DNA of 42,595 bases from Candidatus Methanoperedens sp. (GTDB lineage: Archaea > Halobacteriota > Methanosarcinia > Methanosarcinales > Methanoperedenaceae): the NCBI GenBank assembly GCA_030650845.1, contig JAUSDC010000066.1:1-42595 (forward strand). Reading direction: 5' to 3'. The translations under genes were made by a program, and so were the position numbers. Under the pieces are notes generated by a model. The model saw only the letters and a program-made list of their open reading frames with translations, was not told the origin of the DNA and made no database searches. Shown here one piece after another: positions 4,105-29,078 of the stretch; the stretch's first letter is position 1, and the number at the start of each line of letters is the position of its first letter.

Positions 4105-4236
4105 GTTAAATCCTTAATCGATATTTTATCTCTGTGTGATTTTCTTTTTAAGATTCATACTATTGAAACAAAAAGAAACATTCAATATACCTGAAAATAC
4201 AAATAGCCCTCTATAAAATAAAATGGAGATGTGCAA

Positions 4237-4656: not shown

Positions 4657-4680
4657 ATTTTTTCAATCTATTCATTTTTC
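4648..4680. terminator. Bidirectional hairpin terminator
   Basis: Perfect 10-bp inverted repeat ATAGATTGAA / TTCAATCTAT (4648-4657 and 4662-4671) with a TTTT loop, followed by a T-rich run. It overlaps the CBS-protein stop codon and lies between two convergent genes, so it can serve both. Confidence 0.6.
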
Positions 4681-4685
4681 TATTT

Positions 4686-6062: not shown

Positions 6063-6203
6063 AAGTCCCTAAAAATAGCAAATGGTATAAATAAGGTTTT
6101 TTATTTGATTTTCTTGCATACTTGCATGGTTGCCGCAAGATTGATCAAACTTTCAGGATCCCAGTGATGGATGAATATATTTTGCATAGCGATAATAACG
6201 TTA

Positions 6204-6212
6204 TTTATAATA
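6204..6212 (+). promoter_or_regulatory. TATA box for the SNF symporter
   Basis: TTTATAATA sits about 25 nt before the ATG at 6232, the archaeal spacing from TATA box to transcription start. No ribosome site is present, so transcript and ORF probably begin together (leaderless mRNA). Confidence 0.5.
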
Positions 6213-6231
6213 TTCAAACCACTGTAGAATT

Positions 6232-7524: not shown

Positions 7525-9426
7525 TTCTGGCAAGCATAAGATAGGGCGGATAACATCGATAAAACCCACAAAATCCCAGCTACATGCTCTGGAAATGCTA
7601 AAAAGACTGGACTTGAGCCTCCATATTACATGGAGCAAAAGAGGAGTCCCTTCTCATTTGTGCGGTACTTTATCAGCCGAGATGGAAGAAGACCCTGAAA
7701 AAGCTGCATGGAAATTCCTATCAGAACATTTTAAGTTATTTAAGATGAAAGAGAGTTTGGAGGATTTGACGTTTCTCAGAAAAACAGATAGTCTTGGGGG
7801 ATGTCATGTTGTATTTCAGCAGTTTATCAATAAATTGCCGGTCTACAATGCTTTTACTTCGGTCCATATGGATAAATGTAACCGGATCAACAAAATCGAT
7901 ATCTGCTACCATCCAGATTTGTTTGTAGAATTACTCCTAGAAAAAGGCATCTCACAGGAGGAGGCGATCCTCATTGCCATTGATACTCTTAACGCACAAA
8001 AAAGAGTTGCAAGGGCGGTTTCTGGAGAACAGGTAATTTATCCAAAAGATAATAAATACTATGTGGCGTGGCAATACCTCTAATTGATCCTGTTGAAGAA
8101 TGGTATGTATTTCTTGACTTTAAAACAGGCAATATACTGGATATTCTGGATGCGCTTTTTAAAGCCACAGGCAGAGGAAGAGTTTTCATGCCAAATCCCG
8201 TAGTAGCTCTGGGGGACAGAAAACTTACAGCAGAATCCGAAATTCCAGATAGAGCTTATACCGATGTTGTTCTAAAGGATCTTGACGGGCAGGGTTATCT
8301 GAGCGGTCCTCATGTGGATACATGTACAACTCCGAATAGAGCAAAAGAACCGGATTTGATTTTTAACTACTCAAGACCCGACCCACGTTTTAAGGAAGTG
8401 ATGGCATATTATCATATCGATGAGGCTGCGCGGTATATACAGAGCCTTGGATTCACCAACTTGTGCAATAAGACCATAAAGGTAAACGTTCACGGGGATT
8501 TCGTGAATAACTCTTATTACAATCACGATACCAGGGAAATAACCTTCGGCACATGGTATATTGACGATGCAGAGGATGCGGACATAATCCTGCATGAATA
8601 CTGCCATTCTATTTTAGATGACCAGGTGCCGGGCTTTGGGCTTAACTGGAGCACCTGTCCGATCGCAGAGGGTTTTGGTGATTTTTTTGCGGCATGTTTT
8701 TTTGCTGAGATAAATGATGGCTTTAACCGCGAATGTGTTGGAGACTGGAACGGCATCGGAAAAATAGGTGATTGTGTAAGCCGGGTTGATAGTAAAAAGC
8801 ATTATCCTGAGGACTTTCTGGGGTTGGAAAGCTGCGACAGGGACGGGGAGATATGGTCTGCAGCCTTGTGGGATATATACCTGCAAATGGGCGGGGCTTC
8901 TGAGATCAAGGCAAGGAGGCTTGCTGCAAGGGATAATGCCATTCGATTGATCATTGAAAGTAATTTCAACCTGAATATTAATTCAAGGTTTGAGGACGCT
9001 GCGGATGCAATTATTATTGCGGATAATAATATTTACGATAGTACATATGAGCATTTAATCAGGGAAGTTTTAGTGAAGCGGGGAATTCTATTTCCACTGG
9101 TAAAAGTTGAGATGCAAGCAGAGGCAGAGCCATATATGGTTCGGGTGGGAAGTACACTGAAATTTTTGATCAATCTTACAAATGCGGGTGAAGTTGTATG
9201 GAAAAAAGCAAAAATCGTCATAAGTATTCATAATGAAAAACATCTTATGGTCAAGAAGCTGGTTAAAAGAATCAATAATATGCAGGTCGGAATGCAGAAG
9301 TCCATAGAGAAACCATGGCGGATTCCGAAGAGATTGAAAAACGGGGAGTATGCTTATACAGTGAGCGCATACTACAGCCGGAATAAAACAGGTTCGTTAG
9401 AAGGCAAATTCATGGTAATTGTCTGA
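7517..9426 (+). pseudogene. Fungalysin/thermolysin-like metalloprotease, one frameshift
   Basis: Two adjoining frames form one protein. The first (7517-8083) ends KYYVAWQYL; the second resumes as IPLIDPVEEWYVFLDFKTG from about 8071. Together they give an N-terminal propeptide of FTP/PepSY type, then a gluzincin catalytic domain. That domain has HEYCH (8593-8607) and the third zinc ligand in AEGFGDFF (Glu codon 8668-8670), the M36/M4 pattern. The C-terminal 100 residues resemble a CARDB-type beta-sandwich (VRVGSTLKFLINLTNAGE). A one-base indel near 8070 breaks it. No signal peptide is seen, and the TTG start at 7517 is uncertain. It could be a fresh pseudogene, an assembly error or, less likely, a programmed frameshift. 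Confidence 0.7.
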
Positions 9427-9433
9427 GCCTGAA

Positions 9434-10672
9434 TTAGTCTATGATTTCGACGACGCATAATAAACCGTGTCCGCAACCCAGTGCAGGTTCGAGGGACATT
9501 TCTATATTTCGCAGGATTACAGCAATCTGAGGTCCCATCACGCTTGCCCAGAAATCCACGACAGGGAATCGGTGCGCATTTCTATAAAGCCATGTCAGGA
9601 ACTTTAACTCGTTTGAAATATCCGGTATTGTGGTCTCGATAAGACGTGAGACCATGCCATCATTACCGTGGAGCAATGCTTCAACGAAATTTATCACGCA
9701 ATTCCATTTTTCTTTATAGTCCTGTAAACGTGTCCAAACCTGCGGCTGTAGTTTTCCAAATTTTGCGCACCAGTCAAGGTTAATATTCAGGTATTCTAAT
9801 TCCCCTCTATAATCCCTGTCAAAAAGGCGGTTGATCTGATAGCGATAATTAAAGCGTGGTGCGCCAAAGAGACCCGTCTCCATATGCCTGCCCACAAAAA
9901 TAGAACGGTCAATACATCGAACTACCTGAATAACTGCTTCTGCCTTTTTAGCAGCGGCTTCAAGCAAATTGTATAGCATATAAGGTGTCCAGTAGCATAC
10001 ATCGAACGACTGGATATATCCTGTGTTGCGCGATTCAGGCGGTATAAGATACGCCATATTATATGGAAGCATCGTTCTGCTCTCGTTCCAGTATTTTGGC
10101 CACTCAAGAGAATACTTCCCAAGTAAATCCAAGACAATAAAAGCTTTTGATTCGGCATGATTTATTATCTCTTCAACGAGCTGCGCAAGCATATCCGGTG
10201 CAAGATGAGAAAGAGATGAGTAAGACGAGAAGTAAATATCAAATGGTTGTTCACCCGTTAGCGGAAAACCTCTGTTCAGATCTGCCTGTTCGAACCACAC
10301 ATTGTTTCGATTTTCATAGTTTTTCCTGCCTTGCTGAACCATAGAATCGCTGACATCAATCCCCGTGTAAGAAATCTGGTCTGGAGACAATACAAAACAC
10401 TGTTTACCTGAACTAAGAGGCTGGCTGACTGGAACATGAGAAAGCAGTTCAAAACCTTCACCACTGCCGCAACCAAGATCAATTACATGGATATCACTCT
10501 TTTTTGCCAAAAGTTTTTCAATTGGGCTGCGTATTGTTGATTTAATTATGATATCTTCCCAGTATTTCCTTGCATAGTCCTTCTTTCCTGTAAGACCGCC
10601 TTTCTCCAGTCCGTAAAAACCCACTTGTGCTGCGACATCATAAAATTCTGCAGGTTCAATTTTTTTGTACAT
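9434..10672 (-). CDS. Class I SAM-dependent methyltransferase, unknown substrate
   Basis: A 412-aa cytoplasmic protein. The N-terminal half is a Rossmann-fold methyltransferase: HVIDLGCGSGEGFELL is motif I (SAM-binding glycine loop) at about residues 61-76, YTGIDVSDSMV is motif II, and FEQADLNRGFP is the acidic motif. The C-terminal 200 residues, rich in aromatic and acidic residues, are not recognised. AGGAGAG precedes the ATG at 10672. It starts 7 nt after the CNNM-type gene and is probably cotranscribed with it. The substrate cannot be inferred; similar proteins modify small molecules. Confidence 0.75.
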   Translation of the reverse strand: MYKKIEPAEFYDVAAQVGFYGLEKGGLTGKKDYARKYWEDIIIKSTIRSPIEKLLAKKSDIHVIDLGCGSGEGFELLSHVPVSQPLSSGKQCFVLSPDQISYTGIDVSDSMVQQGRKNYENRNNVWFEQADLNRGFPLTGEQPFDIYFSSYSSLSHLAPDMLAQLVEEIINHAESKAFIVLDLLGKYSLEWPKYWNESRTMLPYNMAYLIPPESRNTGYIQSFDVCYWTPYMLYNLLEAAAKKAEAVIQVVRCIDRSIFVGRHMETGLFGAPRFNYRYQINRLFDRDYRGELEYLNINLDWCAKFGKLQPQVWTRLQDYKEKWNCVINFVEALLHGNDGMVSRLIETTIPDISNELKFLTWLYRNAHRFPVVDFWASVMGPQIAVILRNIEMSLEPALGCGHGLLCVVEIID

Positions 10673-10679
10673 ATCTCTC

Positions 10680-12004
10680 CTATTTTTGTTTATTTTGTTG
10701 AGTGAGTGGAGCTTTTCGAACAGGCATAACCAGTACCTTATCTATCCGGTTTTTATCCATATCCATCACCTCAAAGCGTAATCCACCCCACTCAAAATGG
10801 TTGCCTTCATAAGGGATACGCCCCACCTGCATCAGCACGAAGCCGCCTAATGTCTGATATATAGTCTCTCCTGGCAGCTCTCTAATGCCGAATATCTCTT
10901 TGAAATCATTCACGGGCAACATTCCATCCAGTAGCCAGAGCCATCTTCGCGTTGCACAGCCAGTGGCTCCTTCAGTTCCTCAACGGATGGTATATCCCCA
11001 ACGATCTCTTCAAGTATGTCGTTGAGTGTTACCAATCCCTGAACACTGCCGTATTCATCTACCACCAGTGAGATATGTATGCCAGATTGCTTGAATAATT
11101 CCAGAACTTTAAGGGCGTGCGTACTTTCTGGCACAAACAACGGGCGCCGCAAGGATGCCTTCAGATCAGCAGGCTTACCTGCCATGTTACGACCCAACAT
11201 GTCCTTAACCTGCACTATGCCAAGAATATTATCAAGGCTACCCTGACCTACTGGAAAACGGGAATGACCGCTTTCGGCTATCTTACGTCGTATTTCTTCG
11301 GGTGAATCATCGATGTCGAGCCAGAAGATCTCAGTCCGCGGCGTCATCAATGCACCGACACGCAGGTCGCCCAGGCGAAATACATGCTCTACCATATCTC
11401 GTTCTGCTTTTTCAAACGTTCCAGCTTTCATGCCTTGCTCGATCAGGATATTAATCTCCTCCTCTGTTACTGGCGGCTCGGCAACCGGTCGTATGCCCAA
11501 GATCCTGAGTACTGCATCTGTCGAAATGCTCAACAGATGAACCGCCGGGGAAGCTATCTGGGATAACACGCGCATCGGAGCGGCCATAGCACAGGCTATT
11601 CGCTCGGCGTTATGTAATGCCATCCTTTTGGGCACAAGTTCACCGATAACGAGCGTAAGATATGTAATGCCCAGAACCACAGTACCCAGAGCTATGGTTT
11701 CGCTGTAGGGCGCAAGTAGGGGTATAGAGCTCAGTCGTGCCGATAGCTCCTCTGCTATGGTTGCTCCGCCTAATACACCAGCCAATATGCCTATGAGTGT
11801 GATTCCAATTTGAACTGTGGATAGTAAACGATTGGGTGAATTTGCAAGATCCAGAGCGACGCGTGCCTTTGCATTGCCTTCATTGACCCATTGTTGAAGC
11901 CGCGCCTTCCTCGCCGATACAATGGCAATCTCAGACATGGAAAAAACACCGTTAGCAATAATAAGAAAAATAATGAACATAATTTGAAAAGTGATATCGG
12001 ACAT
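10680..12004 (-). pseudogene. CNNM/CorC (HlyC)-type membrane protein, one frameshift
   Basis: The main frame (12004-10910) holds a DUF21/CNNM membrane domain (about residues 1-180) and a CBS pair (about 200-335; LMTPRTEIFWLDI, FPVGQGSLDNILGIV). It then stops at GSGYWMECCP. The C-terminal CorC_HlyC domain continues in another frame (10922-10680; LDGMLPVNDFKEIFGI to the end). Joined, the protein is about 440 aa, the normal length for this Mg2+/Co2+-efflux or magnesium-homeostasis family. The shift is a single-base indel near 10920. Truncation would remove only the cytoplasmic corC domain, so partial function is possible. As with the protease 3 kb away, assembly error is an alternative. Confidence 0.75.
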
Positions 12005-12050
12005 TCTGCAACCTTTTATTAGCTTGGTATTGAATTTAACTTATTAAACC

Positions 12051-14756
12051 TTATGGCTTATATGAATTTTTAAATCTAACAACTTTTTTTAATATCTCAG
12101 CTATGACAACCACAGTACTTGATGTCAGCAGGATTCTTATCCATGCATCAAACCCAAGAGGCGCAGTTTCAAAAACCGCTGCCAGAGGCTGCCAGTAAAT
12201 AGCAAGCATCATAGCAATGATAGACCCCGATAGCGCAAGGAGCAACCTTTTATTTGTAAAGAAACCTGTCCTGAATATGGATTGCTCAAGGGATCTGCTA
12301 TTCAGCGCATTAAATAATTCGAATGAAATAAGAGCAGCAAAAGCTGTTGTTTGCGCCAATGCGGTCCTCTCTGCCAAAGGAAGGTCATAAGTTGTATTCC
12401 ATGACCATGCAAAGAGGGCGAAAGTTCCCATGAAAATCGTTGATGTTATTCCGATAGTGTAAAGCACTATCCGTTTTGACAGGATATTTTCTAAAGGATC
12501 GCGGGGTGGCATCAGCATGACATCCTTTTCGGCAGGCTCAACCGTTAAACCGAGAGCTGGGAACTCATCGGTAACAAGATTAACAAACAGGATCTGAAGT
12601 GCAAGCAAAGGAACAATTGGAAAATCAAGTATCACCACAGCAGTAAATAGAATAGCAACCTCGGCAAAATTACTGGAAAGGAGATAGCAGGCGCCTTTCT
12701 GTATATTGCTGTATATCCTCCTTCCTTCTTCAACTGCATGCACAATGGTTGCGAAGTTATCATCCGTGATTACCATATCAGAAGCTTCCCTTGCGACATC
12801 GGTGCCTGTAATTCCCATGGCTATTCCGATATCAGCTCTTTTAAGAGCCGGAGCATCATTAACACCATCGCCTGTCATGGCTACGACATGGCCATTGCGC
12901 TTCAAGGCATCCACGATCCTTAATTTGTGCGCCGGCGATGCGCGGGCATATATAGAAACAGAACGGGCGGCTCTGCCTAATTCATCATCGGTCATCTTTT
13001 CTATCTCACCACCTTCCAGAACATCCCCGTCATCGAGCAGTCCTATTGTTTTTCCCACAGCAGTGGCTGTGAGTTTATTGTCCCCGGTTATCATCACGGT
13101 TTTAATTCCAGCGGTCTTGCATATGGCTATGGCTTCTATCACTTCCTCTCTTGGAGGATCCATCATTCCCATAAGCCCGACAAAAACAAGCCCCTGCTCC
13201 ACGCAGGATGATGTATATTCATTGCATTCCCTGCCTTCAAAGGTCTTTTCTGCAAATGCAAGAACACGAAGCGCTTCCTGCGCCATTTCCTTATTTGCCC
13301 CGATGATCCTCTCACGATCTTCATTATTAAGATCCCTGACAGTGCCATTTTCCCAAATATGAGAGCATACATCCAGTACTGATTCAGGCGCTCCTTTTAC
13401 AAATGCCATGATGCTGCGGGGCGTATTGTGAAGCGTGCTCATGAGCCTGCGTTCGCTGTCAAATGGCAATTCAGTGATACGTGGATAACTTTCATCCAAG
13501 CCTCCTTTTTTAGCAGCAACGAGCAGTGCTCCCTCTGTGGGATCTCCGATAATGCGCCATCCTCCGTCATGTTCAAGATAGGAATTGTTGCACATCATCC
13601 CGATCTTCAAAAGTTCAGTTAGATGTGCATCCTTTGATGGCTGGATCGCCGCGCCGTCCCTGCTGAATTCGCCCTCCGGGATGTAGCCGCTGCCAGTAAC
13701 ATTGATAAAATCATTTGTAAAGAGCGTCCTCACTGTCATCTCACCTCTTGTGATCGTGCCTGTTTTATCAGAACATATCACTGTGGCGCAGCCCAGAGTT
13801 TCCACAGCCGGAAGTCTTCTGATGATTGCATTGTGCTTTGCCATTCTCTGTGTACCAATGGCAAGGGTGGCTGTGACTATGAAGGGCAAAGCCTCTGGTA
13901 TACCCGCTACTGCAAGCGCAGCAGCAATTACCAGCATTCCAGGAATATCCTGCCCGCGAAGCGTTCCTGCGATAAAAATGATCAGGCAGGCAAGCAGGAC
14001 GATCCGCGCAAGCTGGGTGGCAAGTTTTGCAAACTTTATCTTGAGCGGTGGATCTTCTTCTTCTGCCTGGATCATCTGCGCAATGCTGCCTATCTGTGTA
14101 TTATTACCCGTTCCAACGACCACTGCTATACCGTTTCCCCGTACAGCCGCAGTGCCCATGAAAAGCATGTTCTTCTGTTCAGCGACAGGCGTATCTTCAG
14201 TTAACGCACCAGCGCTCTTTGACACAGTATGAGATTCACCGGTCAGGGAAGATTCATTGGTTTCAAGATTTATCGCATCCACAAGCCTTGCGTCTGCCGG
14301 TATCCTGTCCCCTGCCTCTATGTGGATGATATCCCCTGGAACAAGCTCCCTTGTGGCTATCTTTTTCACTTTTCCATCGCGAAGTACTCTTGCTTCGTAT
14401 GACACCATTTTTTTCAGGGCTTCCATGGCTCGCTCTGCCCTGTATTCCTGGATAAAACCAAGAACAGAGATGAACAGGATGATAAAAAGTATCACATACG
14501 CATTCGTGGTCTCTCCCGTGAATGCTGAGATAATTGCGGCGCCAATAAGGACGAGGATAAGGTAATTCTTGAACTGCGAGAGGAAGATACCGAGTGGAGA
14601 AATTCTTTTCTTTTCTGGCAGTTCGTTAAAACCAGATGCAGATAGACGATGATTTACATCATCTGATATCAAGCCCTGTCTTCCTGAGCGCAGACGCTGG
14701 AAAACCATCTCTGCACTATAGGTGTACCACTTCTCATTTGACCCCGGATCACTCAT
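12051..14756 (-). CDS. P2-type cation-transporting ATPase (Ca2+-ATPase-like)
   Basis: A complete 901-aa P-type ATPase: cation_ATPase_N domain, A domain with TGES (residues 172-175), phosphorylation motif DKTGT with Asp 330, N domain with KGAPES, and hinge TGDGVNDAPALKRADIG. Ten membrane helices are expected. TM4 reads IPEALP (286-291) where Ca2+ pumps usually have PEGLPA, and TM6 reads NLVTDEFPALG, with Glu replacing the usual Gly. The overall type is P2A (SERCA/PMR1-like), exporting Ca2+ or Mn2+; the changed ligand region leaves ion choice open. It is divergent from a CaCA exchanger 78 bp away, which supports a role in Ca2+ handling. Confidence 0.93.
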   Translation of the reverse strand: MSDPGSNEKWYTYSAEMVFQRLRSGRQGLISDDVNHRLSASGFNELPEKKRISPLGIFLSQFKNYLILVLIGAAIISAFTGETTNAYVILFIILFISVLGFIQEYRAERAMEALKKMVSYEARVLRDGKVKKIATRELVPGDIIHIEAGDRIPADARLVDAINLETNESSLTGESHTVSKSAGALTEDTPVAEQKNMLFMGTAAVRGNGIAVVVGTGNNTQIGSIAQMIQAEEEDPPLKIKFAKLATQLARIVLLACLIIFIAGTLRGQDIPGMLVIAAALAVAGIPEALPFIVTATLAIGTQRMAKHNAIIRRLPAVETLGCATVICSDKTGTITRGEMTVRTLFTNDFINVTGSGYIPEGEFSRDGAAIQPSKDAHLTELLKIGMMCNNSYLEHDGGWRIIGDPTEGALLVAAKKGGLDESYPRITELPFDSERRLMSTLHNTPRSIMAFVKGAPESVLDVCSHIWENGTVRDLNNEDRERIIGANKEMAQEALRVLAFAEKTFEGRECNEYTSSCVEQGLVFVGLMGMMDPPREEVIEAIAICKTAGIKTVMITGDNKLTATAVGKTIGLLDDGDVLEGGEIEKMTDDELGRAARSVSIYARASPAHKLRIVDALKRNGHVVAMTGDGVNDAPALKRADIGIAMGITGTDVAREASDMVITDDNFATIVHAVEEGRRIYSNIQKGACYLLSSNFAEVAILFTAVVILDFPIVPLLALQILFVNLVTDEFPALGLTVEPAEKDVMLMPPRDPLENILSKRIVLYTIGITSTIFMGTFALFAWSWNTTYDLPLAERTALAQTTAFAALISFELFNALNSRSLEQSIFRTGFFTNKRLLLALSGSIIAMMLAIYWQPLAAVFETAPLGFDAWIRILLTSSTVVVIAEILKKVVRFKNSYKP

Positions 14757-14834
14757 AAAATCTTATATGCAGAGTATTCATAATATATTTAACTTTCATC
14801 AGGTCATAGAGTAAATGTAAAAAACAGGATAACG

Positions 14835-15779
14835 ATGCCATCAGAAATGACCTCAACTTTAATATTTTTGCTTATTTCAATCCCCATTATTATCAAATCC
14901 AGCGATATTTTCACTGAAGGAGCCTCTAAACTTGCAAAGATGCTGGGTGTCTCTGATTTCATCATCGGGATAACTGTTGTGGCGCTGGGCACTTCACTTC
15001 CAGAGCTTGCATCAGACTCCTATGCCTCGTACATCGATCACGGTCAAATAGCCTTTGGGGATATCATCGGGAGCAACATCACCAACATCGCCCTGATCCT
15101 TGGTCTGACCTGCGTTATTAAACCGCTTGTAATAAAACATACAGAAATCTACAGCGGCTGGATACATCTTTTAATATTGACGCTTGCATCAGTGTTCATA
15201 CTTGTATCAGGGGGGATAGGAAGGATCGGGGGGATAATTTTCATATTCGCGTATATTTTTTATCTTAAAAACTCAATTGAAAAATATCGTGAACTGGGTA
15301 TTGAGACTATCGAAAAAAATGATTGGAATAAAAATATATTCGAAGTTCTCATTGGATTGATCGGAATACTCATAGGAGCACATCTTCTTGTAAATTCAAT
15401 AATAGGTCTCTCAACGGCTTTTGGGATATCGGAATATCTTATTGCGCTTGTGCTTATGGCTGTGGGAACATCTCTGCCTGAACTATTCGTTTCTGTATCG
15501 GCTGCCAGGAAGGGATATATGACCATGGCTCTTGGGAATATCATTGGAAGTAATGTCGCCAACATACTGTGGGTTCTTGGAGCTGCCGCAATTATCAGAC
15601 CCATCAGAATAGATCCTGAACTTATTTTTGTTCAACTCATATTCATGCTGTTGCTTTCGGTATTGCTGATTGTTTTTAAAAAATCAGGTTATGTGATTGA
15701 CAGGAAAGAAGGGGCTGTTTTTTTAGTAATTTATGTTGTTTTTGTTCTGGTGAGCATATTTTTTGGGAGGAAAGCTTGA
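14835..15779 (+). CDS. Ca2+/Na+ antiporter, CaCA family (YrbG-like)
   Basis: A 314-aa, ten-helix exchanger with two inverted alpha repeats. The first has VVALGTSLPELASD with FGDIIGSNITNI; the second has LMAVGTSLPELFVS with LGNIIGSNVANI. Both Glu residues of GTSLPE coordinate Ca2+ in the family (as in NCX_Mj). It uses Na+ or H+ influx to expel Ca2+. Shared divergent intergenic DNA with the P2-type ATPase suggests one primary and one secondary Ca2+ export route. A second gene follows 40 nt downstream on the same strand. Confidence 0.93.
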   Translation: MPSEMTSTLIFLLISIPIIIKSSDIFTEGASKLAKMLGVSDFIIGITVVALGTSLPELASDSYASYIDHGQIAFGDIIGSNITNIALILGLTCVIKPLVIKHTEIYSGWIHLLILTLASVFILVSGGIGRIGGIIFIFAYIFYLKNSIEKYRELGIETIEKNDWNKNIFEVLIGLIGILIGAHLLVNSIIGLSTAFGISEYLIALVLMAVGTSLPELFVSVSAARKGYMTMALGNIIGSNVANILWVLGAAAIIRPIRIDPELIFVQLIFMLLLSVLLIVFKKSGYVIDRKEGAVFLVIYVVFVLVSIFFGRKA

Positions 15780-15819
15780 AGTACTTATTGCTCAGTTTAT
15801 TCTTAAATACCAATAACAA

Positions 15820-16320
15820 ATGACCTTTGAAGAAATGCTCCTGAATATTCTTGGGTTTATCCCGAGCAAAGAACTCTTAATAGTTCTTTTGGCAGCACTG
15901 CCTCTTTCAGAACTCCGTCTTTCTATTCCTATAGCTATTATCAAGTTCAATATTGACCCGGTTATGGCATTTGCATTATCAGTGATTGGCAACATGATAC
16001 CTGTAATACCATTGCTGCTGTTCCTTGAACCTGTATCGAATTTTCTGCGGCGGTGGAAGATAGGGGATAAGTTCTTCACATGGCTTTTCAACAGGACTTA
16101 TCACAAACATAATGAGAAATTTGAGAAATATGGCTCTATGGGTCTTGCCATATTTGTGGGTGTGCCACTCCCGGTGACAGGCGCATGGACAGGCTGCGCA
16201 GCAGCTTTTGTTTTCGGATTCAAATTCAAGAATGCATTCCTTGCGATACTTGCAGGAGTTATTATGGCTGGCATTATAATTACCGTATTGACAATAACTG
16301 GAGCCAAGATATTTATATAA
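15820..16320 (+). CDS. Small multidrug export-type membrane protein (COG2426)
   Basis: A 166-aa membrane protein with four or five hydrophobic segments. ALPLSELRLSIPIAI near residues 27-41 and VGVPLPVTGAWTG near 108-120 are the two conserved half-helices of the Sm_multidrug_ex family. That family belongs to the wider DedA/VTT-like fold group. Transport function is poorly established. It follows the CaCA exchanger by 40 nt, so cotranscription is likely, although a TATA-like stretch near 15797 could give it its own leaderless start. Confidence 0.8.
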   Translation: MTFEEMLLNILGFIPSKELLIVLLAALPLSELRLSIPIAIIKFNIDPVMAFALSVIGNMIPVIPLLLFLEPVSNFLRRWKIGDKFFTWLFNRTYHKHNEKFEKYGSMGLAIFVGVPLPVTGAWTGCAAAFVFGFKFKNAFLAILAGVIMAGIIITVLTITGAKIFI

Positions 16321-16345
16321 TCCACAAGAATTAGTTCGTGCCTAA

Positions 16346-18181
16346 TCATTTCATCATATTTGCTGCATCCTTAACAGCCCCCAGTTTTCCCATGATAGTC
16401 ACATAATCCCCGTCCTGCAAAGCTGTCTCAGGGTGTGCAATAATTGATTCATTATTTCTCCGGATCATAACTATCAGGCTGTCTTCAGGCAGATGAATGT
16501 CCTTGATAGCTTTTCCCATAATCCTCTTATTGTTCACCCGGATCTCTATTATGTCCCCCTCCCCGCTGATCTCACACACAGAAAATAGATCCGGATGTCC
16601 TACCATGCCATCAAGCATCACCGCAGTTGCTATTGTAGGGCTGATCGATCTGATACCAAGATCTCTGAAAGCCTGAAGGTTTTCAGGTTTGTTAACGCGA
16701 GCGACAAGTTTCTCCTCAGTAAAACCGAAATTTGTCTTCGCGATCTGACATACAAGCATATTCACATTGTCCTGGTCTGTGGTCGCTACAAGGTATTTTG
16801 AACTTTCTATCCCTGCTTTTTTCAGAACTGCATTGTCCTGCGCATCTCCTTTGACTGCTCTTATTCCAAGTTGAACAGCCTTCCTACAATTCTCCTCATT
16901 GTTATCTATTATTACAACGTTCTCTCCACGTTTCATGAAACGTTCTGCCAGCGCTCTTCCAACCGTGCCTCCACCTATGATCAATATCTCCATGGGAACT
17001 ACTCCGGTCTTATTTGCAATAAATCTTGCTGATAAACCGGTCGCCAGTACAGTAATAACAATCGTCATGAACATAAGCCCTAGAAGACTGATCGATTCTG
17101 AAGTAAAGCCATAATCATTAAGCCGCAAGGTAAAATATACAGCCATGGAAGCAGGTACGACACCTCTTGGTCCTGTCGCTGCGATAAAAATCTTTTCACC
17201 CAGTTTGAGGTCAGATGTCCTGGTCGAGACATAAACCGCCAGGGGTCTAATTATTAGCATCAAACTAAAAACTAAAATTACACCTTTAATTCCAATCGCT
17301 TTAATGTAATCGAAATCTATGAAGGTGGATAATAAAATAAAAATGATTGACAACAACACTATAGAAATATCTTCCTTAAAATCCTTTATGACCTTTTTAT
17401 GCGGTATATCAGATGACCCGATAAATATTCCAAATATCGCCATTGCCAGTATACCCGACTGATTCCCGATATTCTCTGCACTTACAAATGCAGCAAGGAG
17501 AACCGATATGGTTAGAAGTCTCGCATACTGTTCAGTGATTAGGGGTATTTTACGCAAAACCAGTATGAGGATAATCCCGCTCAATATCCCAAAGAAGGCT
17601 CCATCCAGTAATCTGATCAGGAGAAATTGCGCAACCTTAACCCCTGTCAGTGACGATACGATCCATTCAAAGACAAGAGCGGCAAGTATCACACTGAAGC
17701 CGTCGTTCAATACGGATTCTGCCTGAAGAATGCTTGCAACCTTATTATTGACCCTGATCTGCCGTATGATGGGTGTGATGACACTCGGACCGGTCGCTGA
17801 TACCAGCGCTCCGAACAGCAGTGCAATATTAAAAGGTATATTCAGGATGTAATAAGCCGCAGCAGAGGATAACAGCGCAGTTATCAAAACTCCTGTTGTG
17901 ACAAGACTCAAGATGCTTTTCTGGATTTTGCGTATCTGCCTTATATCGATATCAAGACCGCCGTCAAACACAATAATTGCAACTGAAAAACTCACAAGCA
18001 ATTCGATGCCATTCCCAAAACTACCTGCCTGTATGATGCCTGTTACTTCAGGACCTAAGATGACACCTGCAATTAATAAAAAAACAATACTGGGGATTTT
18101 GAGTATCTGCCCGAGCATGTGCGAGAAGATACCGATGATCAATACAACCACAAATGCCGTTAATAGATATGTAGTACTCAC
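16346..18181 (-). CDS. Na+/H+ antiporter with RCK (TrkA-N/TrkA-C) domains
   Basis: A 611-aa fusion. Residues 1-390 form a CPA1-type membrane domain (IPSIVFLLIAGVILGPEVTG, SATGPSVITPI, ESVLNDGFSVIL, TGPRGVVPASMAVY). Residues 392-530 form a TrkA-N Rossmann domain starting MEILIIGGGTVGRALAERF, with the NAD-binding Gly motif and the acidic IIDNN. A TrkA-C domain follows at about 535-611. RCK domains gate transport by nucleotide, ion or pH signals. GTG start at 18181, with GAGGAGA 5 nt upstream. It is the third complete cation/proton antiporter in the window and the only one with its own regulatory domain. Confidence 0.93.
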   Translation of the reverse strand: MSTTYLLTAFVVVLIIGIFSHMLGQILKIPSIVFLLIAGVILGPEVTGIIQAGSFGNGIELLVSFSVAIIVFDGGLDIDIRQIRKIQKSILSLVTTGVLITALLSSAAAYYILNIPFNIALLFGALVSATGPSVITPIIRQIRVNNKVASILQAESVLNDGFSVILAALVFEWIVSSLTGVKVAQFLLIRLLDGAFFGILSGIILILVLRKIPLITEQYARLLTISVLLAAFVSAENIGNQSGILAMAIFGIFIGSSDIPHKKVIKDFKEDISIVLLSIIFILLSTFIDFDYIKAIGIKGVILVFSLMLIIRPLAVYVSTRTSDLKLGEKIFIAATGPRGVVPASMAVYFTLRLNDYGFTSESISLLGLMFMTIVITVLATGLSARFIANKTGVVPMEILIIGGGTVGRALAERFMKRGENVVIIDNNEENCRKAVQLGIRAVKGDAQDNAVLKKAGIESSKYLVATTDQDNVNMLVCQIAKTNFGFTEEKLVARVNKPENLQAFRDLGIRSISPTIATAVMLDGMVGHPDLFSVCEISGEGDIIEIRVNNKRIMGKAIKDIHLPEDSLIVMIRRNNESIIAHPETALQDGDYVTIMGKLGAVKDAANMMK

Positions 18182-20545: not shown

Positions 20546-21361
20546 ATGGTAATTTTTGGTCATGAACAGATTTACAAATTTGTTTATGATATATCGATAT
20601 TTTTGGTTTTTGTCATATTTACATATTTGTTTGCAAGCGTATCAAAGATATTGATAAATACCTCGATGAAATCCAGCAATCCGCTTATTGTGGCGCGAAT
20701 TAAACAATACGCTTCGATACTCATCTGGACTATAGGCATTATTCTGGGTGTAAGGCAGCTGGGACTTTCAACAGATATTCTGATACTTTTGATGGGACTA
20801 ATGGGTATTGCCTTTATTGTCTCGGCTATATATGTACTTCAAAATTCAGTTTCCCGCTCATTTCTGAACCTGAATATCCAATATAAAGTCGGGGATATGA
20901 TATCAATAAAAAATGTCAGCGGTAAGGTTATCGAAATCACAAACCTCAATACAATTCTTCTGGATAAAGAGGGGAGTATCATTGCTGTCCCTAATCTGGA
21001 GTTCATAAAGAATATCTGGATCAAGCACAAATCTGTCTTAGAAGGATATGAGGTCACAATCCCGATCGTTATCAACAAAGGGATCGATGCGGTAAGTTTC
21101 GAAAAAGAATTATTGAATTCGCTCAAAGAATTGAATAAGCATCTGAAAAAGGAACCGAGCATAATAACTTCAAAGACAAATGAAAAAACGATACAACTTT
21201 CACTTATCGTGAACCTTATTGACCCTGAGAAAAAAAGCGTTATCTCTGCACAGGTCAAAGAGATCGTCGATAAGTTGATCTCAGGGTTCACAGAAAGATC
21301 TGAAAAAGAGAAAAAAGAAACAGATATAAAAGAAATTAAGGAAATATCTAATGGACACTGA
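20546..21361 (+). CDS. MscS-type mechanosensitive channel (short)
   Basis: A 271-aa membrane protein with three N-terminal helices (about residues 12-105). The pore helix is poor in the usual Gly/Ala pattern (LMGLMGIAFIVSAIYVLQNSVS), and a beta domain follows (YKVGDMISIKNVSGKVIEI, IAVPNLEF). The last 25 residues are mostly Lys and Glu. It probably opens on hypo-osmotic stress. GAGGAGA lies 5 nt before the ATG. It overlaps the following APC-Usp gene by 11 nt, which suggests coupled translation. An inverted repeat GGTTA-N7-TAACC (20509-20525) sits in its leader and could be an operator. Confidence 0.85.
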   Translation: MVIFGHEQIYKFVYDISIFLVFVIFTYLFASVSKILINTSMKSSNPLIVARIKQYASILIWTIGIILGVRQLGLSTDILILLMGLMGIAFIVSAIYVLQNSVSRSFLNLNIQYKVGDMISIKNVSGKVIEITNLNTILLDKEGSIIAVPNLEFIKNIWIKHKSVLEGYEVTIPIVINKGIDAVSFEKELLNSLKELNKHLKKEPSIITSKTNEKTIQLSLIVNLIDPEKKSVISAQVKEIVDKLISGFTERSEKEKKETDIKEIKEISNGH

Positions 21362-23606
21362 GGTAGAACTCAGCCGTGAGATGGGTGTTATCAGCGCCAC
21401 GATGATAGGCGTAGGGGCAATGATAGGCGCGGGGATCTTCGTGCTAACAGGAATAGCTGCAGGGACAGCAGGTCCAGGTCTTTTGCTTGCTTTTTCTTTA
21501 AACGGTATCGTTACTCTATTCACGGCTCTTGCGTATGCTGAACTCGGTTCCGCCATTCCTGAAGCAGGTGGAGGATATCTATGGGTGAAACACTCGCTTC
21601 CGAGCATCAATGGTTTCCTGAGCGGCTGGATGAGCTGGTTCGCACATGCCGTTGCAGGCAGCCTGTATGCCCTGGGTTTTGGCGCTTATTTTGGTCTATT
21701 ACTGGAAACCTATCATATCGATGTCTTTGGCCTGACAGGCGAGAGTCTCATCAAATTCCTCGCTGTTATCATTGCCCTAGTCTTCATTTTTGTCAATTAT
21801 AAGGGAGCGTCAGAAACAGGCGCAATAGCGAATATTGTGGGTTTTTTGAAAATCGCGATCCTGGCTGTTTTTATAATATCTGGTCTTTATACGATATACT
21901 ATAAACCTGACTGGTTCTCGAATTTCAACCCGTTCCTGCCAAATGGAATGGGCGGGATTTTCATGGCTATGGGTCTGACATTTATCGCCTTTGAAGGATA
22001 CGAGGTCATAGCCCAGACCGCAGAAGAGGTGAAAAACCCAAAAAAGAACATACCAAGGGCGATTTTTCTTTCGCTGATCATCGTTATTCCCATATATCTG
22101 CTCGTGGCTTTCGTATCTATCGGAGCCCTGACCACGGATATCCCTTCATGGCAGTTCCTGGGGCAGCATAGGGAACTTGGACTGCTTGAGGCTGCGCGGC
22201 AGTTCATGCCATTTGGCACTTTTTTGCTGCTTGTAGGGGGACTTATTTCTACCATGTCTGCACTTAACGCAACAACGTTCTCATCAACGCGCGTCTCTTT
22301 TGCCATGGGGAGGGATTTCAATCTCCCCTCTATATTTAAGAAGATACATCCTGTCAACAGGACGCCGTATGCAGCGCTTTTCATTTCAGGCGCACTGATA
22401 ATTATTATGGCAGTCAGCCTTCCCATAGAACACGTGGCAAGCGCTGCCGATATCATGTTCCTCCTGCTGTTCCTGCAGGTAAATATCGCTGTAATTAAGA
22501 TACGTAATAAATTTGGAAAGGAACTTGATTACGGTTACAAGATGCCATTTTTCCCTGTCATTCCTATCCTTGGCATTATCACACAGCTTTTCCTTGCGAT
22601 ATACATGTTCAATTATAGCCCGTTAGGATGGTATGCAACGATCATATGGATAGCGCTCGGGGTGCTGGTATATTTCGGGTATTCTGTAGGAAAGGAAAAG
22701 ATCGAAAAAGGCAAGAAAGCCAGACATATCTCACCTGGAGATTACCGTGTTGTAGTTTCACTTTCAAAGCCGGAGAACGTTGAATCTCTCATCTCCATTG
22801 GCGCAGGGATAGCAAAATCACAGCAAAGTGAACTGATCGCGCTGAACGTGATCGCAGTACCGCAGCAGGCGTTCCTTGAAACAGGAAATCAATTCATCAA
22901 GGATTCCCAGCCGATATTTGAAAAGGCTATATCAAGAGGAAAAGAACTCGGTGTTACGGTCGCCAAAAAGATCGTGGTCTCTCATAACATTTCTGAGGCT
23001 ATCCTTGATGTTGCAAGGTCAGGGAAAACAAATCTGATCCTCATGGGCGGTACGGAAAAGCTGTTCAGGGGGAAAATAAAGCAAAGTGTTCCACAAATAG
23101 TGATGGATTCAGCAGATTGCGATGTTGGGGTACTGTTTACAAAAAATTTCAAGACCGTCAGGAAGATCCTTGTGCCTTTAGGACCCGGAGATCATGAATA
23201 TCGAGTACGTTTTGCGGAAAAACTAATGAAGTTCTTTAATGCACAGATGACGATATTTACTGTGGTAAATGAAAGAAGTTCAATTCCAGATGTGCAGAAA
23301 AAACACGACGAAATGATCAAATCATTGGGCATAACTGTCAAATGTGAGATCGAGGTTGCAGATTCGATCACGGATGAGATATCCAGGAAGTCAAAGGAGT
23401 ATGACCTCATCTTGATCGGACCATCGACAGAGTGGATATTGCACGATGTCCTTTTCGGCTCAGTGCCTGACAGTATCATAAATAAGTCCGCCTGCAGCGT
23501 ACTTATCCTGAAAGAGCCGGAGCAGCATGCTGAATCAATATTAGAGATGTTATTTGATAAGATAAAAAAAACGAATTTCTTGAGAGATCCACACCGAAAG
23601 AGGTGA
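21351..23606 (+). CDS. APC-family amino acid permease fused to Usp domains
   Basis: A 751-aa fusion. Residues 1-450 are an APC-superfamily transporter; TM1 reads GVGAMIGAGIFVLTGIAAG with the substrate-binding GAGIF motif, and FIAFEGYEVIAQTAEEVKNPKKNIPR covers TM6 and its loop. Residues about 465-600 and 605-735 resemble two universal stress protein domains (YRVVVSLSKPENVESL, NLILMGG; KILVPLGPGDHEYR, DLILIGPS, VLFGSVPDSI). The second glycine loop is changed, so ATP binding is uncertain for it. It likely imports or exports an amino acid under nucleotide control. The partner MscS gene overlaps its start. Confidence 0.88.
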   Translation: MDTEVELSREMGVISATMIGVGAMIGAGIFVLTGIAAGTAGPGLLLAFSLNGIVTLFTALAYAELGSAIPEAGGGYLWVKHSLPSINGFLSGWMSWFAHAVAGSLYALGFGAYFGLLLETYHIDVFGLTGESLIKFLAVIIALVFIFVNYKGASETGAIANIVGFLKIAILAVFIISGLYTIYYKPDWFSNFNPFLPNGMGGIFMAMGLTFIAFEGYEVIAQTAEEVKNPKKNIPRAIFLSLIIVIPIYLLVAFVSIGALTTDIPSWQFLGQHRELGLLEAARQFMPFGTFLLLVGGLISTMSALNATTFSSTRVSFAMGRDFNLPSIFKKIHPVNRTPYAALFISGALIIIMAVSLPIEHVASAADIMFLLLFLQVNIAVIKIRNKFGKELDYGYKMPFFPVIPILGIITQLFLAIYMFNYSPLGWYATIIWIALGVLVYFGYSVGKEKIEKGKKARHISPGDYRVVVSLSKPENVESLISIGAGIAKSQQSELIALNVIAVPQQAFLETGNQFIKDSQPIFEKAISRGKELGVTVAKKIVVSHNISEAILDVARSGKTNLILMGGTEKLFRGKIKQSVPQIVMDSADCDVGVLFTKNFKTVRKILVPLGPGDHEYRVRFAEKLMKFFNAQMTIFTVVNERSSIPDVQKKHDEMIKSLGITVKCEIEVADSITDEISRKSKEYDLILIGPSTEWILHDVLFGSVPDSIINKSACSVLILKEPEQHAESILEMLFDKIKKTNFLRDPHRKR

Positions 23607-23942: not shown

Positions 23943-25100
23943 ATGATTACAATCTTAGAAATATTAGATCAAAATTTATTTGGTGTATCGATCGAGAAAC
24001 TTATATTGTTTTTTTTTATAATACTTTTGACCTTTATTATCAGATCCGTTATTCTGTATATTTTAGATAAAAAAGTCACACTTCTTTTAAAAAAAACCCA
24101 TACCGAAATTGACGACCTGATAGTCAATGCGATAAAAAAACCGCTCAGCTACTTTATATTGCTTCAGGGGTTCTATATTGCCATACTCTCTTTGCAGTTG
24201 CCTGAAAAGATAACTCAATTCGATATTACGGTTTATGATATTGTGCACAGTATCTATATTCTGGCGATCTCGTTCATAGCGCTCTATTTCATCTTCAAAC
24301 TCATAGATATCCTGGGGTTATACCTTCATAATAAAGCCAAAAAAAGTGAAAGTGCGTTTGACGACCAGCTTGTTCCATTAGTTGTGAGAAGTATTCGCAT
24401 ACTCGTAGTAACTCTGGGAATTTTGTTTATCCTTGAAAATTTCGGTTATGATATTACATCCCTGCTTGCAGGACTGGGTCTCGGGGGTCTGGCGTTCGCA
24501 CTTGCAGCACAGGATACCGTGAGCAATCTCTTTGGCTCTATCACTGTATTTTCAGACAAATCATTCCAGCTTGGCGATTGGATAAGCATTGGGGATATCG
24601 AGGGTACGGTCGAAGATATAGGATTCAGGTCAACACGCATCCGCAGGTTCGATCAGGCTCTTGTCACTGTACCAAACAGCCAGTTCATCAAAGGAGGAGT
24701 GGTAAATTATTCTGCAAGGAAAACACGCAGAATAGAATTCTACCTCGGTATAACGTACGGCACTTCAGTAACCAAAATAAAGGAGGTGGTAGAGGGCATA
24801 AAAAAGATCATTGAAGAGGATGACAAATTTGATCATTCGTTCTATATGGTAAAATTCACGGATTTCGGGGCGTATTCTTTGAATATCTATATCTATTGCT
24901 TTACAAAAACGACAGTGTGGGAAGATTTCCTCACGGTCAGGGGTGAATTCAATCTAAAGATCATGCAACTGCTTGAAGAACTGAGCATTGAGATCGCCTT
25001 CCCGTCACAGACGATATATCTGAATACCCCGTATTTAAATACAGGGACTGATAAGACCCCGGAATTAATTCCGGGAAATAGCCAAAAAATGGGTGAGTGA
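23943..25100 (+). CDS. MscS-type mechanosensitive channel (long)
   Basis: A 385-aa channel with four or five N-terminal helices. The pore-lining helix is a classic Gly/Ala-rich MscS TM3 ([26 protein letters not shown]), followed by the beta domain ([33 protein letters not shown]) and an alpha/beta C-terminal domain to about 360. It should release small solutes on osmotic downshock. Its last codons (GTGA) overlap the ablA reading frame and it leads the osmolyte-synthesis operon, so the exit valve and the solute synthesis are made from one transcript. It differs strongly from the shorter MscS at 20546. Confidence 0.93.
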
Positions 25101-25102
25101 TA

Positions 25103-26422
25103 ATGAATAATGCAAAACAACAGGAGATCACGGAAAGAATAAGTCCGGGAGCACGAATATCAAACTGGAAAGACTGGAAGTGGCAGTTAAGACATGCCAT
25201 TCGGGACATTTTCACTTTTGAGAAGGTTACCGGCATTAAATTTGAACCGGATGAAAGGGAACTACTTGAGAGAACTGCTGCAAAGTTCCCGCTTTGTATA
25301 ACTCCATATTATTTATCTCTAATTGATACGGATGACTACAGGAACGATCCATTTTTTAAACAGTCTTTTCCTTCGCCAATGGAACTGATCGTCGAAAAAT
25401 ATGATATGATAGACCCTTTAGCTGAGGATAAAGATAGTCCAGTACCAGGAATTACGCATCGTTATCCAGACAGGGTGTTATTCCATATAAGCAACATATG
25501 CTCCATGTATTGCAGGCACTGTACTCGTAAAAGAAAAGTCGGTGATGTTGATTCTATCCCGACAAAAGATGAGATCACGAAGGGAATAGAATACATTAAA
25601 AATACTCCCGATGTCAGGGATGTCCTGCTTTCAGGAGGAGACCCTTTCATGCTGTCAGATGAGTACCTTGACTGGATACTCACTGAATTGCGAAAAATCC
25701 CTCACGTTGAAGTAATACGCATAGGTACAAGAATGCCTGTTGTGCTGCCATATCGTATTACAGACGGATTGGTAGAAGTGTTAAAAAAACACCATCCATT
25801 ATGGATCAATACGCATTTTAACCATCCAAGGGCAATAACAGAATCATCGAAAGAAGCTCTTCGGAAACTGGCTGATGCAGGAATACCACTTGGCAATCAA
25901 TCTGTCCTGCTGGCTGGAGTGAATGACTGTCCCAGGATAATGAAAAAACTTGTCCATAAACTTGTTCAGAACAGGGTTAGACCATATTATCTGTACCAGT
26001 GCGATCTATCTGAAGGTTTATCTCATTTTCGTACACCTGTGGGCAAAGGCATTGAGATCATGGAAAGTTTAATAGGGCATACAAGTGGTTTTGCCGTGCC
26101 TACTTATGTCATTGACGCTCCAGGAGGGGGAGGAAAAATCCCTGTAATGCCAACTTATCTGATATCATGGTCAACAAACAAGGTTATTTTAAGGAATTAT
26201 GAAGGGGTTATTACCACATACAAGGAACCAGATAACTACGAACCTATTTTTTGTGATAGGAATTGCAAGGATTGCAAGTTGCAGTTAAAACTTGATGAGG
26301 CAGAAGAGATCAAAGCCGTTGGAGTTGAGAAACTGCTGTGCGACTTTGATGATACGATATCCCTTACTCCAGGAAATACCGACAGGATAGAAAGAAGAAC
26401 CGATAGAAAATATGATGAATGA
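25103..26422 (+). CDS. ablA: Lysine 2,3-aminomutase
   Basis: A radical-SAM, PLP-dependent enzyme that converts L-lysine to beta-lysine, the first step to N-epsilon-acetyl-beta-lysine. Counting from the ATG at 25103, the [4Fe-4S] motif is CSMYCRHC. The substrate-binding Asp residues are D301 (in YQCDLSEG) and D338 (in [10 protein letters not shown]), and the PLP lysine is K345. Each is offset by exactly 8 from Asp293, Asp330 and Lys337 of the clostridial enzyme, so lysine specificity is well supported. The ATG at 25103 has GGTGA upstream; a GTG at 25097 would overlap the MscS stop. C-terminal Cys residues ([10 protein letters not shown]) may bind metal. It overlaps ablB by 11 nt. Confidence 0.95.
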
Positions 26423-27248
26423 TATAATAACAAATATTGGTAATTCTATTCTGCAGCACGGGAAATACAACGACCGTATTTATCTGATGAAACTCTCAAA
26501 GGACGAATTTCCCACTATCATAGAAAAGCTTGATAGACTGGCTTTAGCAGAGAACTATTCTAAAATAATTGCTAAAGTACCAGGATTTGCAAAAGATGAA
26601 TTCATAGAGAATGACTACATAGTGGAAGCATCTATACCCAGATTTTACAAGTACTCAGAAGATGTTTATTTTATGGGAAAATATTTTATCGATTCCAGGA
26701 AAAGTAGTAATAAATCCGAGGAAATTAAAAAAATAGTAAAAGCTTCTACATTAAAAGCAAGCGAAGAAAAAACGGTTGAACTTAATCCTGGCTTTAATTA
26801 TAGGCTCTGTGATCACTCCGATGTTTCCCAAATAGCAGAGCTATATAAAACTGTTTTTGAAACCTATCCATTCCCGATTCACGATCCACAATACATCATG
26901 AAAACAATGGATGAAAATTTTGTTTATTTCAGTGTCTGGAAGAATCATGAGATCGTTGCGGTATCGTCGTCTGAAATGGATATCGACTCTTGGAATGTAG
27001 AAATGACAGATTTTGCTACATTGCCAGAATATCGAGGAAATGGATTTGCCCTGTACCTTTTGCAGCAGATGGAGAATGAAATGCGAAAAAGAAATATGAA
27101 AACAGCTTATACGATTGCAAGGGCATTTTCTTATGGTATGAACATTATCTTTGCAAAAATGCGGTATAACCACAGCGGCACGTTACTGAACAATACTAAT
27201 ATTTCCGGAAACTTTGAAAGTATGAATGTTTGGTATAAATATCTTTAA
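26412..27248 (+). CDS. ablB: Beta-lysine N6-acetyltransferase
   Basis: A 278-aa protein whose C-terminal half is a GNAT acetyltransferase (about residues 130-270). [20 protein letters not shown] holds the acetyl-CoA pyrophosphate loop RGNGFA. The N-terminal half (about 1-110; [18 protein letters not shown]) is the extra domain seen in AblB. It acetylates the epsilon amine of beta-lysine to the osmolyte N-epsilon-acetyl-beta-lysine. The overlap with ablA, the following gene 15 nt on, and the shared operon fit this role. Two adjacent ATGs (26412, 26415) are possible starts. Confidence 0.93.
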
Positions 27249-27266
27249 AATATTGAGAGGACAATG

Positions 27267-29078
27267 ATGAAAGAATTACTGGAATACGATAAAACAAAAC
27301 TGATAGAAACATTATGGGAGTGCGATCCTGATATCCATGAGCTCCTCATATCAAGTTATGATCTCCAGGACGCGCGCAACAAGATGTTTGATCACCTCAA
27401 CGGCATCGAGAGGCACCTTTATAACATTTACTCTGATAAGTCCTTCAAGGACATGAACCTTCTTGAAAAGAACAATGCTAAGGAGTGTATTCGGATTCTG
27501 AAGAACGTTATCAGGACTGAGAATGAAAAGATATCAAATTTTTCAGCTTTGCAGAGCCTGTATTCTGCTGCAAAAGGGCAGATCGATACAGATCATGTGA
27601 CAGAAGGATTCCTCACGGAATTTATTTTTCTTTTTAAAGGCATCAACGGTAATTCGGGAATGTACATAGAGAAGGACGTCCCGCTTTTTCTGAAATTAAT
27701 AGGTATGGATGCTATACAGGAGCGCATGAAATCTCTTAATCAGTATGCATGGAACATGGAAAGGGGTATGGGGCGTTATAAGGTCGGACTGGATAAAGAT
27801 CTGATCAAAGAACGGGAAGAGAATAAGAAATACATATTGAATCTGTTCAATGCAGACGAAAATAACTGGCAGGACTATAGATGGCAGCTCACAAACATCA
27901 TCAGAGATATTGACGCTCTGAAGTCTGTGGTCAGGTTGAGCGCTGATGAATTGAAGGGGCTTGAGTGTGCCACAAAACACAGAATCCCGTTCCAGATAAC
28001 TCCACATTATCTATCACTTTTTGACAGGGAAAATACCGGAAAGTATGATCATGCTATCAGGGCGCAGGTACTGCCAGGTGAGAATTACTGTCTGAATTAT
28101 ATCCAGAGTAAAGAGAGCGGCGCTGACCTTGATTTTATGGATGAAAAATCCACAAGCCCTGTAAAGGGAATTACGCGAAGGTACCCGCAGATACTTATTC
28201 TCAAGCCTTTTGATTCCTGTCCTCAGATATGTGTGTACTGCCAGAGGAACTGGGAAATAACGGACATAAAAGACGCAGTATTCTCACGAGATACCATGTC
28301 GAACGCCATAAAATGGATAAAAGACAACCGGCTTATCACTGAAGTCCTGATCACAGGCGGCGACCCTCTAACGCTTGACGATGTCAATATCGACTGGATG
28401 CTGTCTGAGATATCAGGAATAGAACATGTCGAAAGGATCAGGATCGGTACAAGGATCATTGTGACGATGCCGCAGAGAATTACGGATGAGCTCATGGAAA
28501 TATTCGATAAGTATCACGAACTGGGAACAAGGGAATTATCCATTGTGACGCATTTTGAACATCCCACGGAGCTTTCGCCGGATTCACTGGAAGCTATTGA
28601 TAAAATCAAAAGGCTAGGAATCAACTTATATAACCAGCAGGTTTTTACATATTACAACAGCAGGAGATACGAATCATGCCTGCTCAGAAAAGCACTGAAA
28701 AAGTCGGGAATTGACCCTTATTACACGTTCAATACCAAGGGAAAGGATGAGACCATTGATTACCGCGTTCCAATCGCGAGGATAGAGCAGGAAAGAAAAG
28801 AGGAGGCACGGTTCCTGCCCGGGCTTGTGAGGACAGATGAGGCAGTATTTAATGTCCCGAGGCTTGGAAAATCACATCTTCGTGCATGGCAGGACCATGA
28901 GGTGATAATGATATTGCAGAATGGAAGGAGGTTATATCGCTTTTATCCATGGGAGTCGAAGTATGCGCTGGTTGAACCGTATAACTATATGGATGTGCCG
29001 ATATATGATTATCTTAAAAGGTTGAACAATGATGGCGAAGACGTTGAGGAATATTCATCTATCTGGTATTATTTCTGA
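27267..29078 (+). CDS. KamA-family aminomutase, probable glutamate 2,3-aminomutase
   Basis: A 603-aa radical-SAM protein of the lysine 2,3-aminomutase family. Residues 1 to about 195 are an unrecognised helical extension. The core starts at NWQDYRWQL, has the cluster motif CPQICVYC (C318, C322, C325), ITGGDPL, and a PLP lysine at K535 (VPRLGKSHL). The two Asp that hold the lysine side chain in AblA are replaced by K491 and N529. I recall this Lys/Asn pair from clostridial glutamate 2,3-aminomutase, so the product may be beta-glutamate, a known methanogen osmolyte. GAGAGG lies 6 nt before the ATG at 27267; an ATG at 27264 is alternative. The ablAB context supports osmolyte synthesis. Confidence 0.82.
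   Translation: MKELLEYDKTKLIETLWECDPDIHELLISSYDLQDARNKMFDHLNGIERHLYNIYSDKSFKDMNLLEKNNAKECIRILKNVIRTENEKISNFSALQSLYSAAKGQIDTDHVTEGFLTEFIFLFKGINGNSGMYIEKDVPLFLKLIGMDAIQERMKSLNQYAWNMERGMGRYKVGLDKDLIKEREENKKYILNLFNADENNWQDYRWQLTNIIRDIDALKSVVRLSADELKGLECATKHRIPFQITPHYLSLFDRENTGKYDHAIRAQVLPGENYCLNYIQSKESGADLDFMDEKSTSPVKGITRRYPQILILKPFDSCPQICVYCQRNWEITDIKDAVFSRDTMSNAIKWIKDNRLITEVLITGGDPLTLDDVNIDWMLSEISGIEHVERIRIGTRIIVTMPQRITDELMEIFDKYHELGTRELSIVTHFEHPTELSPDSLEAIDKIKRLGINLYNQQVFTYYNSRRYESCLLRKALKKSGIDPYYTFNTKGKDETIDYRVPIARIEQERKEEARFLPGLVRTDEAVFNVPRLGKSHLRAWQDHEVIMILQNGRRLYRFYPWESKYALVEPYNYMDVPIYDYLKRLNNDGEDVEEYSSIWYYF

Follow-up and report, generated by a model that had tools for sequence, protein, structure and literature searches.

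A long KamA-family protein behind ablB in Candidatus Methanoperedens, a possible glutamate 2,3-aminomutase of an osmotic-stress operon

The KamA superfamily includes the lysine 2,3-aminomutase (LAM; AblA/KamA, TIGR03820, PDB 2a5h), the glutamate 2,3-aminomutase (EAM; TIGR04368), reportedly described by Ruzicka and Frey in 2007, the arginine 2,3-aminomutase BlsG and EpmB. M. jannaschii MJ0634 is a further KamA protein, of ~620 aa, on which our literature search found no paper. Among the classical osmolytes of archaea is beta-glutamate, whose synthesis enzymes were not all known according to a 2005 review. NMR work had ruled out a glutamate aminomutase in the methanogens studied earlier, and a glutaconyl-CoA route was proposed instead (reviewed in PMC1224877). 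In bacteria the eam genes are controlled by Na+ riboswitches (PMC9337991), which fits an osmolyte role of beta-glutamate in general. Regarding Ca. Methanoperedens, a 2024 study of the salt-stressed Vercelli 1 (PMC11337218) described a salt-induced MscS-kamA-ablB operon with a kamA of 1326 bp and reported N-acetyl-beta-lysine; the term beta-glutamate appears nowhere in its text.

The Abl operon and its ion genes

The window, that is, the whole stretch of DNA that was analysed (42.6 kb, 1.25% of the genome), contains the run MscS - ablA - ablB - long KamA gene on the forward strand. The MscS channel (23943..25100; PF00924, PF21082) is the first gene and overlaps ablA (25097..26422; TIGR03820, 790 bits against a cut-off of 525), which encodes a lysine 2,3-aminomutase with the Asp/Asp substrate residues. 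Then follow ablB, encoding the beta-lysine N-acetyltransferase (26412..27248; TIGR03827, 344 bits against a cut-off of 205), and, after a gap of 15 bp, the long KamA gene (27264..29078). The order MscS-kamA-ablB is the same as in Vercelli 1, and the ablA of the window is likewise 1326 bp long. Downstream, however, only 'genes of unknown function' are given for Vercelli 1 (PMC11337218), whereas in the window the long KamA gene is found. The one-strand run from MscS and ablA to the long gene is also present in the genomes G002, G008, G014 and G024.

The long reading frame is intact and encodes 604 aa from the ATG at 27264 or 603 aa from the ATG at 27267. The second ATG is probably the true start, because a Shine-Dalgarno-like GAGAGG (27255..27260, forward strand) lies 6 nt before it and the proteins of the family start with 'MK' throughout. 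The original prediction used this same start, so its K491 and N529 are K492 and N530 in the 604-aa count (from ATG 27264) that we use for all residue numbers of the long protein.

The genes around the operon are also related to ions and osmotic stress. On the forward strand there are a second MscS-type channel (20546..21361; PF00924) and an amino-acid permease with a Usp domain (21351..23606; PF13520, PF00582), which adjoins the operon in two other loci too (L061, L180), and on the reverse strand a Na+/H+ exchanger with TrkA domains (16346..18181; PF00999, PF02254, PF02080). The latter belongs to an exchanger cluster at 2839-18181 with an SNF-type symporter, in the same window as the two MscS channels. 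Three of the four PF00999 Na+/H+ exchangers and two of the three MscS channels of the whole genome are located in the window, which is an ion-stress and osmotic island. In other archaea a Na+/H+ exchanger or TrkH adjoins the long gene as well, in differing arrangements (L032, L034, L150, L151, L036). Neither a Na+ riboswitch nor any other Rfam element was found in the window, nor a Na+ riboswitch in 11 bacterial loci, and in simple scans for promoters and terminators the matches did not exceed those in shuffled sequences. The osmolyte setting that had been proposed for the gene stands in the form of an operon with ablAB; beta-glutamate had been named as an osmolyte of methanogens, but Methanoperedens is an anaerobic methanotroph.

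Family assignment and substrate pocket

The long protein passed the model for KamA family radical SAM proteins (TIGR00238, 319.5 bits against a cut-off of 199.2). It stayed below the cut-offs of the EAM model (TIGR04368, 255.9 of 650 bits), the AblA model (TIGR03820, 210.6 of 525.4 bits), the BlsG model (177 of 600 bits) and the EpmB model (133 of 369 bits), the EAM score being above the AblA score. LAM 2a5h was its sole sequence relative in the PDB and also the best fold match of the AlphaFold2 model (E 5.4e-21, TM 0.70 on target), which had a mean pLDDT of 83.7 and a pTM of 0.85, with the PLP-lysine loop 519-543 at low confidence and poorly modelled. The long protein resembles LAM in its core fold and cofactor residues, besides being its operon neighbour; it differs in the substrate residues (Lys/Asn instead of Asp/Asp), in an I/V at the position of LAM R116, in the lack of the LAM C-terminal domain (PF12544, LAM_C) and in the AblA score, so that it falls outside AblA. 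With EAM it shares the Lys/Asn positions, EAM-type columns, an N-terminal segment, the CxxxCxxC motif and the PLP lysine. However, it has ~145 further N-terminal residues, a helical region without Pfam match, and a different C-terminal part, and the core identity is only 29-34%. The long protein is a member of a separate ~600-aa family, from which 56 full-length relatives were collected. We place it as a variant within the KamA family that would work like EAM without being filed as EAM.

We compared the residues in one MAFFT alignment of the 56 long proteins, 12 LAM/AblA proteins, three EAM-type proteins and other KamA proteins. The EAM reference was L120, the only EAM above the NCBIfam cut-off that we obtained; L121 and L122 are EAM-type but below the cut-off. 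The records of Acetoanaerobium and Peptoclostridium gave no clostridial EAM above the cut-off and the class of the L120 genome gave no second EAM.

The [4Fe-4S]/SAM motif CPQICVYC (28218..28241, with C319, C323 and C326) is invariant in all 56 long proteins. So are R328 (28245..28247), the counterpart of LAM R134 that is present in LAM and EAM too, and K536 (28869..28871), the presumed Schiff-base lysine for PLP, which aligns with LAM K337. Hence the cluster cysteines and the PLP lysine are intact, as had been noted before. LAM R134 binds the alpha-carboxylate, a role that R328 would have by equivalence.

Regarding the substrate positions, D303 of the window AblA (D293 of C. subterminale LAM) aligns over K492 (28737..28739) and D340 (LAM D330) over N530 (28851..28853), all on the forward strand, in agreement with the original prediction, which had read the same replacements as D301 to K491 and D338 to N529. 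K492 is K in 50 proteins, including all the archaeal members of the family, Q in four and M in two, the exceptions forming one deltaproteobacterial clade; N530 is N in 56/56. Independent profile-profile alignments with hhalign to LAM and to EAM both gave the same K492 column, whereas the one to LAM threaded the N530 region differently from MAFFT. The K492 column is therefore robust, and the N530 column is the less certain of the two because of the gap ahead of the PLP lysine, on whose placement it hangs. Given that the relatives go down to 45-47% identity, the K/N pattern (50/56 and 56/56) exceeds chance. K494, two residues past K492, is also invariant (56/56). The two positions are K and N in EAM L120, K and T in L121 and L122, D/T in BlsG and E/A in the EpmB-like rows. 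Among the KamA classes sampled, K plus N occurred outside the long family only in EAM L120 and in a distant Bacteroides protein.

This resemblance to EAM extends to other parts of the protein. Among the core columns conserved within the long and the LAM groups yet different between them, there are eight at which the long family has the residue of all three EAM-type sequences instead of that of LAM (M292, R305, I312, T364, F489, K492, I504 and D577); with L120 alone it also agrees at Q327 and N530, and it sides with LAM against EAM at only two columns. Furthermore, hhalign matched residues 145-195 (codons at 27696..27848, forward strand) alone to the N-terminal extension of EAM, which is absent from LAM, with a score of 33.6 (E 6.9e-6), the best of 200 column shuffles scoring 18.6. 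No match to this segment was found by hhalign in the N-termini of LAM, nor in those of other KamA proteins with a longer N-terminus.

In the KamA tree the members of the long family group into a single clade, which is set off by a long branch. The original prediction had asked for such a phylogeny, and the single clade came out; the grouping with EAM is absent from the best tree, although the topology test did not reject it (p-AU 0.50). A LAM plus long clade was not rejected either (p 0.19). The EpmB-like rows were nearest to the long clade in the best tree, without support (77, unstarred).

Bacterial gene settings, proposed reaction and alternatives

In Syntrophales the long gene lies inside the glycine cleavage operon, gcvT-gcvH-gcvPA-gcvPB-long-lipA-lpd (L045-L050, L053, L066-L068), and glutamate as substrate leaves this placement between gcvPB and lipA unaccounted for. 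In L159:1308-13228, a contig binned as Woesearchaeota with doubtful binning, a lysine-fermentation set (KDD, a 393-aa KamA protein, KamB, KamC and lysine 5,6-aminomutase) is followed by the long gene and then by ornithine aminotransferase (OAT) and glutamate-semialdehyde (P5C) dehydrogenase, which are enzymes making glutamate. Where K492 is replaced by Q, the neighbours are TRAP-TAXI transporters and an Ord-like dehydrogenase (L052, L054 and L055) or, in L056, a class III aminotransferase together with a TRAP permease and a beta-keto acid cleavage enzyme (BKACE); the long gene is at ~5995-7815 in these four loci, and M is found in L044 and L071. This Q/M subclade probably represents a catabolic variant acting on a different substrate. 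A guaA-type ligase adjoins the long gene in L154, L155 and L158. The bacterial settings speak for an aminomutase chemistry on amino acids, with more than one substrate within the family.

From what is known of the family, we infer that SAM bound to the [4Fe-4S] cluster would be cleaved to a 5'-deoxyadenosyl radical, which would abstract the C3 hydrogen of an amino acid bound on K536 as a PLP aldimine; the amino group of this substrate would then migrate from C2 to C3. That the long protein is an amino-acid 2,3-aminomutase is quite probable, and that its substrate is other than lysine we hold with still more confidence. L-glutamate would be the most probable substrate and beta-glutamate the product, because the pocket has Lys/Asn instead of the lysine-binding Asp/Asp. 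In Methanoperedens the long protein would be made together with AblA and AblB from a single osmotic-stress operon, and its product would serve as an osmolyte, free or as a building block. We give an even chance to glutamate as the substrate with beta-glutamate used as osmolyte. In favour we counted the passed TIGR00238 model, the LAM matches in PDB sequence and fold, K492/N530 and the catalytic residues, the EAM score above the AblA score, the EAM-type columns, the N-terminal segment, the operon with ablAB, the co-occurrence with ablA in the genus, the ion-gene neighbours and the glutamate-making neighbours in L159; against it, the EAM cut-off missed widely, the Q/M in 6/56, the gcv setting, the gap at N530, the tree, the earlier NMR work on methanogens, the salt-stress study that reports N-acetyl-beta-lysine and does not mention beta-glutamate, and the lack of a Na+ riboswitch or other Rfam element. 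The proposal of a glutamate-type enzyme thus holds for the residues, the columns and the N-terminal segment, and it is weakened by the model score (256 of 650 bits), the Q/M subclade and the bacterial gcv and catabolic clusters. If true, there would be a second beta-amino acid in the salt response of anaerobic methanotrophs and a first function for a family spanning archaea and several bacterial phyla.

K492 and N530 might instead fit a group different from the gamma-carboxylate of glutamate, the enzyme being a 2,3-aminomutase for e.g. glutamine, a neutral amino acid (alanine, leucine) or 2-aminoadipate. We consider this possible, though on the unlikely side. The fold seems to serve more than one substrate because K492 varies to Q/M in a subclade with catabolic-type neighbours, and the invariant K494 may be the real anion binder; however, all the archaeal members keep K492 as EAM does, and the EAM-type columns and the N-terminal segment are common to both. 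A KamA-fold enzyme with a substrate other than a free amino acid, e.g. a protein or cofactor modifier whose link to ablAB is incidental, would agree with the conserved gcvPB-long-lipA placement, the N-terminal region without Pfam match and the guaA-type neighbour. Nevertheless, we find it improbable, since such an enzyme would not need the PLP lysine, the alpha-carboxylate arginine and the pocket residues, which are all kept, and the aminotransferase/BKACE and OAT/P5C dehydrogenase neighbours point to free amino acids.

The position directly downstream of ablB and the KamA fold could also suggest a second lysine aminomutase that raises the beta-lysine supply for AblB. This is highly improbable: both lysine-binding Asp are replaced, PF12544 is absent, the AblA model reaches 211 of 525 bits and the long gene occurs in genomes where AblA was not detected (G004, G021, G033). 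Of all these readings, glutamate is the one that we prefer.

Distribution and extended operons

The archaeal relatives come from Methanoperedens, ANME-2 and other methanogen families of the phylum, and the bacterial ones from Syntrophaceae and other Deltaproteobacteria, Omnitrophota, Elusimicrobia, Chlorobiota and Poribacteria. Two members, as we take it, appear to belong to the cultured Methanocella arvoryzae and Methanothrix harundinacea, and therefore the claim is directly testable. The source genome has one copy of the long gene, besides AblA, and no copy was found in viral contigs. The presence of the long gene is associated with that of ablA within the genus Methanoperedens (9/13 vs 2/18; Fisher p 0.0014, without correction for phylogeny).

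In some Methanoperedens the operon is larger. A PurD-like ATP-grasp gene and a GNAT gene are inserted between ablB and the long gene in G014 and G024, and in G008 this pair is in place of ablB. We located such insertions, with an EctA-like GNAT, after ablA or ablA-ablB at L176:6267-8124, L178:2783-4679, L177:4906-6749, L182:7536-9358, L183:3828-5692 and L184:5611-7478. The PurD-like protein passes the NCBIfam purD model (324 bits against a cut-off of 288); this copy in the operon is restricted to six genomes, each of which has ablA, the long gene and another, separate purD. The GNAT protein is nearest to EctA, yet under the EctA cut-off. In the window's own genome neither gene is in the operon, the sole PurD is the ordinary one and the best GNAT matches are weak.

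ATP-grasp plus GNAT is also a route to N-acetylglutaminylglutamine. Because of this, AblA, the long KamA, the PurD-like ligase and the EctA-like acetyltransferase of part of Methanoperedens might form one operon making an undescribed osmolyte, e.g. beta-lysine joined to a second beta-amino acid as an N-acetylated amide or dipeptide, an idea that we regard as rather doubtful. Such an operon would resemble N-acetylglutaminylglutamine amide synthesis, with beta-amino acids instead.

The distant Bacteroides protein that likewise has K plus N is a KamA protein of ~713 aa (L114:3869-6013), in a record listed as plasmid; 90% of the query aligns with it, at 24.5% identity. The long gene behind ablB in G003 encodes only 130 aa (L179:5562-5951) and is apparently a decayed copy.
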